DNA from: Desulfobacterales bacterium
Lineage (GTDB): Bacteria; Desulfobacterota; DSM-4660; Desulfatiglandales; Desulfatiglandaceae
NCBI GenBank assembly: GCA_014382905.1
Contig: JACNIU010000166.1
Span: 1,877 to 41,473 of the forward strand
Direction of reading: 5' to 3'
Length of the DNA stretch: 39,597 bases
The notes beneath the pieces were generated by a model that was not told the origin of the DNA, ran no database searches, and saw only the letters and a list, made by a program, of their open reading frames with translations. The translations under genes and the position numbers were made by a program. Below are positions 21,478-24,857 of this stretch, piece after piece. Numbering within the stretch: position 1 is the first letter of the stretch; every line of letters begins with the position of its first letter.

Positions 21478-21543
21478 ATAAGCCTCCCTTTTTAAATTCT
21501 TGTATCCGTTTAGTGTTTTGAAAACGGTTATGATTAGATTGCC

Positions 21544-21766
21544 GGACCATGAGGGTCTCTTTCCCAAAGGACGTAACAAAAATTCTCAACAGGCGGTAGA
21601 ACGCCCCCTTGACGTTGAATACAGGTTCCGGGCAGGCAGGGGATGTGTCCGTTTAAATGGATACTTTCTCCTGGGGCTGTCCTGTGACAAATATCAAGGC
21701 CTCACTGCCGTTCCTATGAAATGAGGGCCTTATTTACGTCCTTTGGGAAAGAGACCCTCATGGTCC
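21544..21766. mobile_element. MITE-like element, copy 1 (223 bp, 33-bp perfect TIRs)
   Basis: GGACCATGAGGGTCTCTTTCCCAAAGGACGTAA at 21544-21576 and its exact reverse complement at 21734-21766. Confidence 0.85.
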
Positions 21767-21804
21767 TTAGCTTTGTTTCAAACCGCGAAAGTGTTACAAA
21801 TGCT

Positions 21805-22752
21805 TTAACTTTTTTTAACAGGGCTCTCAATAGATGTAAAGGCCTTCTTTATAAAATGCCTTGAAGCCTTAAGTGTACTCCCAAGCAGTTCATGGTCTGC
21901 TTCTTTGCTTTGAATCACACGTACGAAGGGCCCCAGCGGTGCCCATTGAGCCGGATCGCTTTCCCTGAAAAGTGCAACCGTGGGGGTGCAGAACATGGCG
22001 GACAGGTGTGTTATACCGCTGTCGTGGCCCACGCATAAGGCGGCCTTATTGAGTGTCTCCATGAGCTGTTCCTTGTTCGGAGAAGAGAGGATCTGCACGT
22101 CACCAGGGCGAAGGTTATCTCTAAAATATGGATGAAGTCGTTCTTCAGCCGGCCCCAAAAGAATTACAGGTTCCAGATCTCTGAATTCGGTTTCCCGGCA
22201 AATGGTGTCAAACAGATTCAGCCAGAAGTCTGGAGGATGGTTCTTTTCTAAAGAGCCTGATCCCGGGTGGAATATGATCTTGCTCCTCTTCCCTGATCGC
22301 CCCAGTCCTTCCTTCAAACGACCGCTTCTTATAGTCTCGATCGACCTGACAGGATCAACAGGGAGCCCGGCAGATTTCAGGCAGCGTCCCAGGTACTGGG
22401 CCACATGGATATCCTCACCCTTGAGTGGAAAGGACCGGCACAGATGAACAGAGGCGTAGGGCATATAAGATCGCAGGTTACGATAAATGACGCCGCTTTC
22501 ATCACTGAAAAACGCCACTACAACCTCTGCGCCCGACACAGGCAGACGCTTATCGTCCGGCTCATCTGCAAACAATCTGTGCCATCCGGAGGTCTCTAAA
22601 TCCATCGCCTCATGCACATAAGGCCGGATAAATTCGAGGCCAGGCTGCCTCCCCACAAAGGTGATGGCGGCCTTGTCAGAGAGGTCTGAGAGCGCCGGGA
22701 GCAACATAAGGGTGTCTCCCAGGGCGCCGGGCCTGATGATAAGGACGTCCAA
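21805..22752 (-). CDS. Glycosyltransferase family 9 (heptosyltransferase-like)
   Basis: MDVLIIRPGALGDTLMLLPAL; HPGSGSLEKNHPPDFW; VGHDSGITHLSAMFCTPTVALF. Confidence 0.92.
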   Translation of the reverse strand: MDVLIIRPGALGDTLMLLPALSDLSDKAAITFVGRQPGLEFIRPYVHEAMDLETSGWHRLFADEPDDKRLPVSGAEVVVAFFSDESGVIYRNLRSYMPYASVHLCRSFPLKGEDIHVAQYLGRCLKSAGLPVDPVRSIETIRSGRLKEGLGRSGKRSKIIFHPGSGSLEKNHPPDFWLNLFDTICRETEFRDLEPVILLGPAEERLHPYFRDNLRPGDVQILSSPNKEQLMETLNKAALCVGHDSGITHLSAMFCTPTVALFRESDPAQWAPLGPFVRVIQSKEADHELLGSTLKASRHFIKKAFTSIESPVKKS

Positions 22753-22761
22753 AGGATCCTC

Positions 22762-23103
22762 CTACCATGCAGGGGATGCAACAACCAGGATCACACACTC
22801 CTTTTCGCCGTTGTTGAAGAGTGCGTGGCTGGAGCCCACCTGAATCCAGATGGCATCCCCCGGCTTTACCTGCCTTGTCTCATCATCCACCCTCATTTCG
22901 CCCGATCCGTTTAGAACAAAATAGATCTCTTCCATCGGATCCACATGGGACGCAATTTCCTTGCCAGGCTTCAAACTGGCAATCGCCAGAAAACCGATCT
23001 CTTTCAGGGTTCGCCGGTCTAAAATCATCTGGGCAATCGCTCCGCCATGGGCAAGATAGGTGGTTTCCAAAACCTCCTTATCATTAACATTCCGCACAAT
23101 CAT
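22762..23103 (-). CDS. Cupin-domain protein
   Basis: HVDPMEEIYFVLNGSGEMRVDDETRQVKPGDAIWIQVGSSHALFN. Confidence 0.9.
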   Translation of the reverse strand: MIVRNVNDKEVLETTYLAHGGAIAQMILDRRTLKEIGFLAIASLKPGKEIASHVDPMEEIYFVLNGSGEMRVDDETRQVKPGDAIWIQVGSSHALFNNGEKECVILVVASPAW

Positions 23104-23250
23104 AATCCGAACTCCTTCTTGCGAAAGTCAAACCACGTATCAAAGTTCAAGAACTATGTTGACTTTTTGTCCCTATTCAGTAAGAGTAAAATTTTCAAGT
23201 GAGACCCTAAGTCGCCTAGATCTTATAATCCAAATCGTGGAGGATTCCAA

Positions 23251-24561
23251 ATGGAAAAGGGCAAGCTGGATCCCCGTCTGAGACTCATACAACAAGCCCC
23301 CATGAAAGGAAAGGTCGTCCTGTTAAGGGTGGATCATAATGTGGTTAAGAAAGGCCAGATTAAAGACCCTTACCGGATTGATGCCACTATAGGCACCCTT
23401 TACGCCATTGCCGCACAAGGGGGGAAGCCTGTCCTGATGACCCATATTGGGAGGCCTAAAGACAAGAAAACCGGAAAGATCGTATGCCGCGAGGACCAGT
23501 CGGTAATCCCCATTGTTCGGTATCTGGAACAGAAGCTGCCCGTCACCATACATGTCCAAGGGTTCCCCATAGATCCTGAAAAGGGGATCATCCATACAGA
23601 CAAATCCATCGGGCCGGCCATTGAAGCGCTGCGAGAGGGGAAGATCGACATGATCTACCTGCCCAATTCACGCTGGTTCCAGGGTGAGCAATCAAAGGGG
23701 CCGGAGAGACAGGATCTGGCGGACGAACTCGGGTCCATTGCGGACATTTATGTCAATGATGCATTCGGTTCCTGGCGCGCCCATGCATCAACTTACGATA
23801 TTTCTCACAGGCTACCCTCCTACGCCGGGATCCTTCTCCAGAAGGAGTTAATGAATCTCCACAGGGTGCTTGAACCTGAAAGGCCATTTATTGCGGTGGT
23901 TGCCGGGGCGAAATACGATACCAAAATCGGCCCGTTAAAGGCCCTTTACAAGAAGGTGGATCACCTGATTTTAGGAGGGCTGATGTATAACACCTTTCTT
24001 TCTGCCAAGTATGGGGCAGAAATTGCCGGCGTCTCAGAGGAAGACAGGGCCCTTGCAATGGAACTTGTAGAATTGGACAGAGACGAGAAAAAGATCCTGG
24101 AAATGCCCTATTTTGTGGAATCGGAGAGGACAGAAGAGAAGGCTGAAGGGCAATATCGAACCATAGGAATCGAAAACCTGAAAGAGCGAGGGAAAATCAA
24201 ATATATCCTCGATATAGATCCCGCGTCTTTTCAGGAACAGAGGGTTGTAGATGCCATCACGACTGCCAGGACCATTTTTGTGAATGCGGTCATGGGACTT
24301 ATGCCCCTCTTTTTTGAGGGTTCCCAGGCCCTGTATCGTCTGATTGCTGAGAATGAAGCTGCGTCCAAGCTTTTTGCCGGCGGAGATACCCTTCAGGAAC
24401 TCCGGAACCTCTGCCCGGGGATCTACATGGCGGGCCTCGACGACCCTGCCACCTACTACTTCACCGGCGGGGGGAGTGTACTTGCGGCCATAGAAGAGGG
24501 AACCCCGTATCACCTCAAACCGGTTGAGGCATTGATGAATGGTATCACTTTAGCTTGTTGA
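23251..24561 (+). CDS. pgk: Divergent phosphoglycerate kinase
   Basis: VVLLRVDHNVV, LMTHIGRP, YVNDAFGSWRAHAS, VAGAKYDTKIGPLKALYKKVDHLILGG, GGGSVLAAIEEG. Confidence 0.9.
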   Translation: MEKGKLDPRLRLIQQAPMKGKVVLLRVDHNVVKKGQIKDPYRIDATIGTLYAIAAQGGKPVLMTHIGRPKDKKTGKIVCREDQSVIPIVRYLEQKLPVTIHVQGFPIDPEKGIIHTDKSIGPAIEALREGKIDMIYLPNSRWFQGEQSKGPERQDLADELGSIADIYVNDAFGSWRAHASTYDISHRLPSYAGILLQKELMNLHRVLEPERPFIAVVAGAKYDTKIGPLKALYKKVDHLILGGLMYNTFLSAKYGAEIAGVSEEDRALAMELVELDRDEKKILEMPYFVESERTEEKAEGQYRTIGIENLKERGKIKYILDIDPASFQEQRVVDAITTARTIFVNAVMGLMPLFFEGSQALYRLIAENEAASKLFAGGDTLQELRNLCPGIYMAGLDDPATYYFTGGGSVLAAIEEGTPYHLKPVEALMNGITLAC

Positions 24562-24584
24562 AACAATCATTCGTTTGTTGTCTG

Positions 24585-24808
24585 GGGCCATGAGGGTCTC
24601 TTTCCCAAAGGACGTAAATACGGGGATCGTTTCATAGGAACGGCAGCGAGGCCTTGAAATTCGTCACTGGACAGGCCCCAGAAAAAGGTATTCATTTAAA
24701 CGGACATCGCCGCTGCCTGCCCAGGAACGGTATTGAACGTCAAGGGGGCGTTCTATACGCTCCGGAAAAATTTCGTTACGTCCTTTGGGAAAGAGACCCT
24801 CATGGCCC
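24585..24808. mobile_element. MITE-like element, copy 2 (224 bp, 33-bp perfect TIRs), interior inverted relative to copy 1
   Basis: GGGCCATGAGGGTCTCTTTCCCAAAGGACGTAA at 24585-24617 and its exact reverse complement at 24776-24808. Confidence 0.85.
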
Positions 24809-24857
24809 TACGCTTTGTCTCAAACGGCTAATCTGTTACCATGAGTGAGGATTCGGC

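Follow-up and report, generated by a model that had tools for sequence, protein, structure and literature searches.

A nested hairpin core lies in either orientation between fixed outer ends in a family of IS66-type MITEs from a Desulfobacterales genome

When perfect inverted repeats carry matched changes in their arms, this is usually taken to prove that an RNA or DNA hairpin is under selection. The window analyzed here, a 39,597-nucleotide stretch of a draft Desulfobacterales genome (G000), holds two repeats that seem to invite this reading. Their four 33-bp arms lie exactly where a first-pass annotation of the sequence had placed them (none would be expected in shuffled sequence), the arms within each copy are 100% complementary, and where the copies differ, with A or G at arm position 3, the change is paired inside each copy. 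That annotation proposed intra-element gene conversion or selection on a long hairpin, acting as DNA or as structured RNA. Which process keeps the arms matched, and is the matching a sign of function? The position 3 change, although matched within each copy, is not a single event private to the window pair, as it recurs in about 10 copies across the genome.

Each window repeat is a non-autonomous MITE of ∼297 bp with the reported hairpin nested inside it. Each extends further than first described, the true ends lying 31 bp and 42 to 43 bp outside the arms. The interiors had been judged roughly three-quarters identical; the figure is close (125/157, 79.6%), but it is reached only when one interior is reverse-complemented, because the two copies are in opposite states relative to their outer ends, a mutual inversion that had been overlooked. 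In window coordinates, the elements are laid out as follows.

21494-21501, no strand: copy 1 left target duplication AAATTCTT, 7 of 8 bases equal to 21798-21805
21502-21797: copy 1 whole element, flanked by target duplication AAATTCTT/AAATGCTT
21502-21543, minus strand: copy 1 outer B end, GTATCCGTTTAGTG...GATTGCC, by alignment to family B ends
21544-21576, plus strand: copy 1 left 33-bp arm, by sequence match
21577-21733, no strand: copy 1 invertible interior, 157 bp, state R relative to the outer ends
21734-21766, minus strand: copy 1 right 33-bp arm, exact reverse complement of the left
21767-21797, minus strand: copy 1 outer A end, plus strand reads ...CGCGAAAGTGTTAC
21798-21805, no strand: copy 1 right target duplication AAATGCTT
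24542-24839: copy 2 whole element, with a decayed target duplication
24542-24584, minus strand: copy 2 outer B end GTATCACTTTAGCTTGTTGAAACAATCATTCGTTTGTTGTCTG
24585-24617, plus strand: copy 2 left 33-bp arm
24618-24775, no strand: copy 2 invertible interior, 158 bp, state F, opposite to copy 1
24776-24808, minus strand: copy 2 right 33-bp arm
24809-24839, minus strand: copy 2 outer A end, plus strand reads ...GGCTAATCTGTTAC
24840-24847, no strand: copy 2 decayed target duplication CATGAGTG, 6 of 8 bases equal to its left partner at 24534-24541, GATGAATG

The phosphoglycerate kinase (PGK) frame at 23251-24561 takes its last codons and stop from the B end of copy 2 (24542-24561).

The two elements belong to a large family. 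The genome is a 4.56-Mb draft in 500 contigs (97.9% complete, 7.7% contamination), and a genome-wide search allowing up to three mismatches found 67 arm matches on each strand, from which at least 52 complete copies were extracted. The core consists of two near-perfect 33-bp arms around a 157-bp interior, and the outer element ends read GTAACACTTTAGC..GTTTGAAACAA and GTATCACTTTAGC..CTTGAAACAA. Nearly every complete copy has one A end (31 bp, GTAACACTTTAGC[C/G]GTTTGAAACAAAGC..) and one B end (∼43 bp, GTATCACTTTAGC..CTTGAAACAATCATTCGTTTGTTGCC or a variant), and the outer terminal repeats start with GTAAC or GTATC. Most copies with both ends intact are flanked by 8-bp direct repeats, e.g., TTATTATT, GAAATATC, and CTTATTGA. 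With outer inverted ends, 8-bp duplications, and this copy number, the earlier term "MITE-like" was apt. ISDge4, of the ISBst12 group in the IS66 family, has the TIR GTAACTGCTCAGCA and an 8-bp repeat (PMC12898284); ends starting with GTAA and an 8-bp target duplication, both IS66-family features, mark the element as an IS66-type MITE. Elements of the REP/REPIN kind, moved by IS200/IS605-type enzymes, leave no target duplication, and this class was rejected given the 8-bp duplications present here.

What moved these elements? None of the complete copies contains a transposase gene, and the autonomous transposase with the same termini that the first-pass annotation proposed to look for did not turn up. 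The only IS66 transposase in the genome (L124, contig C209) sits beside an unrelated second reading frame. In the stretch read, the likely end of this transposase is GTAATGCCTGAAAAAAAT, unlike the ends of the MITE, and no matching end was found. Following unpaired ends in other genomes reached no autonomous partner, and viral contigs gave no arm matches. Two kinds of insert were also seen. In five loci (L016, L024, L076, L079, and L137), the B-side arm is flanked by a second hairpin insert of ∼107 bp (GGCCTGCCCGCC...GGCGATGGCAGGCGGGC), which adjoins the core or what remains of it. A 32-bp stem-loop (GCCTCCGGCTCGTAGAGCCTACGCCTCGGAGAGG) lies within the interior of L002, L006 (two copies), L069, and L086, at one fixed place, in unrelated interior clades and in both orientation states.

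When the A and B ends are held fixed, the interior lies 25 times in the F state and 24 times in the R state; that is, inverted repeats enclose a spacer found both ways around across copies. On a maximum-likelihood tree of the interiors, the state changes at least 16 times, against a mean of 16.6 for shuffled labels. Pairs of copies with less than 1.5% interior difference share the state in 4 of 9 cases, about as often as distant pairs, and the same-orientation fraction stays near one half across all interior distances. Orientation thus does not follow interior phylogeny, even where interiors are nearly identical. Copies of some well-supported subfamilies all share a state (R in L033/L037/L064/L089, F in L073/L085/L090). 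Mixed strains might have supplied duplicate loci with both states at one site, but the copies retrieved included none. The inversion of the core is the strongest evidence for exchange between the arms.

The arms carry the second signature. Across 51 copies, arms within a copy mismatch at 35 positions, compared with a mean of 87.5 and a minimum of 70 when arms are re-paired between copies (5,000 shuffles, relatedness ignored), and in this wide copy set, the earlier proposal of intra-element gene conversion fits. Independent mutation of the arms, named at the outset as the observation that would count against covariation, does occur, but each such change is limited to a single copy: when changes are placed on the interior tree, all 35 one-arm changes fall on single tips, and 21 matched changes include some on deep branches. 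Some of this contrast is to be expected if mutations build up in dead copies and perfect copies alone spread. Matched changes private to one copy, as in L015, where both arms went from C to G, point to one arm being copied from the other, not to compensation in steps; transversions of this kind can have no G-U pair intermediate. Arms have also changed in step between genera, both being 84.8% identical between this genome and G034, where the interior is 62% identical. Between copies, arms diverge by 5% and interiors by 11%; at about half the interior rate, the arms are probably also under some direct sequence constraint.

Is the hairpin also selected as an RNA? The first-pass annotation allowed for this, and it is now unlikely: Rfam gave no match in either window element, even at a relaxed E value, and consensus folds across three genera, on either strand, keep essentially the arms only, with no conserved covarying fold beyond them. 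About fifty copies here combine matched arms with randomly oriented spacers and lack a conserved fold, so covariation by itself is no evidence of function.

Related genomes provide a useful comparison. The core is shared with MAGs of the same family of Deltaproteobacteria/Thermodesulfobacteriota, HyVt-30, which is apparently G023, and a sediment MAG from WHONDRS that is apparently G034. Of 46 genomes in the family, 16 have ends of the GTAAC type. In other genera, GTAAC-type shells enclose different, unrelated hairpin cores of ∼190 to 200 bp (L152-L153 and L209-L238 in G065 and G012; L156-L208 in G036, G066, G025, and G004). The G065/G012 type (arms GGGGAATGGGGRTTCCGTTTT) lies in one orientation in 18/18 copies, and the G036 type (arms GCAAGGGTGAGGTGTTTTTCAAGGCGATATCT) does so in 15/16, with L179 flipped; in the latter type, the two arms differ at fixed positions and would form G-T pairs on one strand. 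G023 carries the window-type core in another shell with ends CGACCTGTGCGGTTA (L097, L099, L101, and L102), with 8-bp duplications at some copies, and as read from the sequences, 8/8 junctions are in one orientation, with 32 matched arm bases. In a fourth genus (G019), L155 and L177 hold more distant forms of both the arm (CATGRGGGTCTCTTTTCAAAAG) and part of the interior. As the hairpin elements of relatives lie mostly in one orientation, near-random orientation is special to this genome's family. Several shells in the set have lost the core and kept arm stubs: GGACCATG (L125), GGACCATGAGGGTCC (L134, L137, and L138), GGACC (L135), and GAGACCCTCATGGTCC (L136). Three of these share one join at a GGTC repeat, so some may stem from a single deletion.

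We favor, with somewhat better than even confidence, the explanation that hairpin-mediated template switching or arm-arm recombination both inverts the spacer and homogenizes the arms. Spacer flips and matched arms are probably by-products of DNA copying across the hairpin, in which the arms would exchange strands with each other. The element would fold back during replication, and the polymerase would switch template between the arms, or the arms would recombine in a cruciform. A switch that copies one arm off the other would erase differences between them; a switch in one arm with return in the other would invert the spacer. Repeated over the lifetime of the family, such events would yield random orientation and nearly perfect arms, and slippage across the same hairpin could remove the core and leave the arm stubs. 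An IS66-family (ISBst12-like) transposase may have moved the MITE by acting on the outer ends; if these alone suffice for transposition, both orientations would persist. Template switching at inverted repeats has been reported to homogenize arms and to invert spacers reversibly (PMC8604942) and to restore stem pairing in a single event (PMC8794818), so this single process covers both signatures. Several observations stand against the hairpin explanation. Arms diverge more slowly than interiors, and no transposase with ends like those of the MITE was found. Natural spacer inversions reported for template switching involve short spacers with 2 to 5 changed bases (PMC8604942), compared with 157 bp here. 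In addition, G023 has nearly the same arms and a uniform orientation, which this explanation does not predict unless the copies are younger.

Could an enzyme do the flipping instead? In an inverton, short inverted repeats enclose a spacer that is one to a few hundred bp long, and the core resembles this in size and layout. The arms might then be recognition sites of a site-specific recombinase, the copies transposon-borne invertons, and the family a set of dispersed switches. Orientation that is random here and nearly fixed in relatives looks as if an enzyme were present only in this genome, a dedicated invertase would account for the unflipped copies of G023, and an interrupted dyad (GTC-T-CTTTCCCAAAGGAC) can be seen where the arm is conserved. 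However, none of the complete copies contains a recombinase gene, and the assembly has only two serine recombinases, both in frames above 500 amino acids, with none the size of a small invertase. Nor is a promoter role obvious from the neighboring genes (31 tandem, 7 divergent, and 3 convergent; raw counts). We consider this reading unlikely. Its more specific form, with a host or phage recombinase that recognizes the arms and keeps inverting the fifty or so transposon-borne cores scattered through one genome, is less likely still; if true, it would describe a mobile set of genetic switches that spreads itself.

RecA-dependent homologous recombination between the arms, within or between copies, with mismatch repair homogenizing them, is about as doubtful as the general recombinase reading, and perhaps slightly more so. 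It differs from our preferred explanation solely in the enzyme used, and recombination in a cruciform would leave the same record. The 33 perfect bases of the arms are near the minimum length for RecA recombination, and the families with mismatched arms hardly flip (0/18 and 1/16). Yet G023, with its 32 matched bases, has 0/8 flips. Exchange between copies is also suggested by three loci, L005 (C12), L023 (C353), and L027 (C460), whose interiors are identical (157/157) within shells that differ by 11 to 31% and whose orientations differ, but these interiors stem either from conversion of one copy by another or from assembler collapse. We therefore make no claim for an exchange of cassettes between copies: the distances of shells correlate with those of interiors (Mantel r = 0.45) at a level not clearly below the correlations within each part, and assembler collapse could produce the identical interiors.

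Orientation that appears random at every interior distance, in a 500-contig draft where many contigs terminate in MITE repeats, also raises the concern that a short-read assembler linked shells and interiors in random orientation. Stretches shared between contig ends are most often 55 bases long, which indicates a graph word of ∼55, so that one word covers shell, the 33-bp arm, and the first interior bases. Where the 20 shell bases beside the arm are unique in the set, the F:R split is still 8:7 (both sides) or 12:14 (one side). Some well-supported subfamilies hold a single state, and no such scrambling is seen in comparable hairpin elements from other drafts. Mis-assembly is therefore a very unlikely source of the split. 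From the word longer than the arm, the even split in copies with unique shells, and the unscrambled drafts of relatives, we conclude that the inversion of the core is real, as read across copies at separate loci. Least credible, and close to negligible, is a core that is a separate small transposon and entered each shell independently in either orientation: the different shell in G023 and the other cores in GTAAC shells would suit it, but the core position within the shell is constant, cores free of a shell or flanked by their own target duplications were not found, and shell and interior distances are correlated.

This family records spacer inversion and arm homogenization in nature many times over, and with its large copy set, a normally rare process, probably copying across the hairpin, becomes countable. 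By comparison with hairpin relatives that stay unflipped, it can be tested which arm length, perfection, or enzyme flipping requires.

How does the family compare with known systems? Like ISDge4 of the IS66/ISBst12 group, it has ends starting GTAAC..CT.AGC and an 8-bp target duplication; it differs as a MITE without a transposase gene, and a resident IS66 copy sharing its ends was not found. Quasipalindrome template switching jointly predicts arm homogenization and spacer inversion (PMC8604942, PMC8794818), but the reported spacers are very short, and here a 157-bp spacer is involved in about 50 copies. Invertible promoters (invertons) likewise have inverted repeats enclosing a short invertible spacer; the cores here, in contrast, are transposon-borne, number in the dozens, and come with no dedicated serine invertase that we found. 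In the literature searched, which mostly excluded subscription papers, no bacterial MITE with an invertible core is described. A further parallel is offered by the Correia repeat enclosed elements of Neisseria, short bacterial MITEs which, in the accounts cited in PMC10969869, are reported to invert. There, as far as those accounts go, the element itself inverts, and here only the nested core does so between fixed outer ends, a comparison made on descriptions rather than sequences. MITE inversion, as in these accounts of Correia elements, and the exchange mechanism are thus already known. What appears to be new, as we did not find it described, is a nested core that inverts independently of its transposon ends and has reached an apparent equilibrium across some fifty copies.
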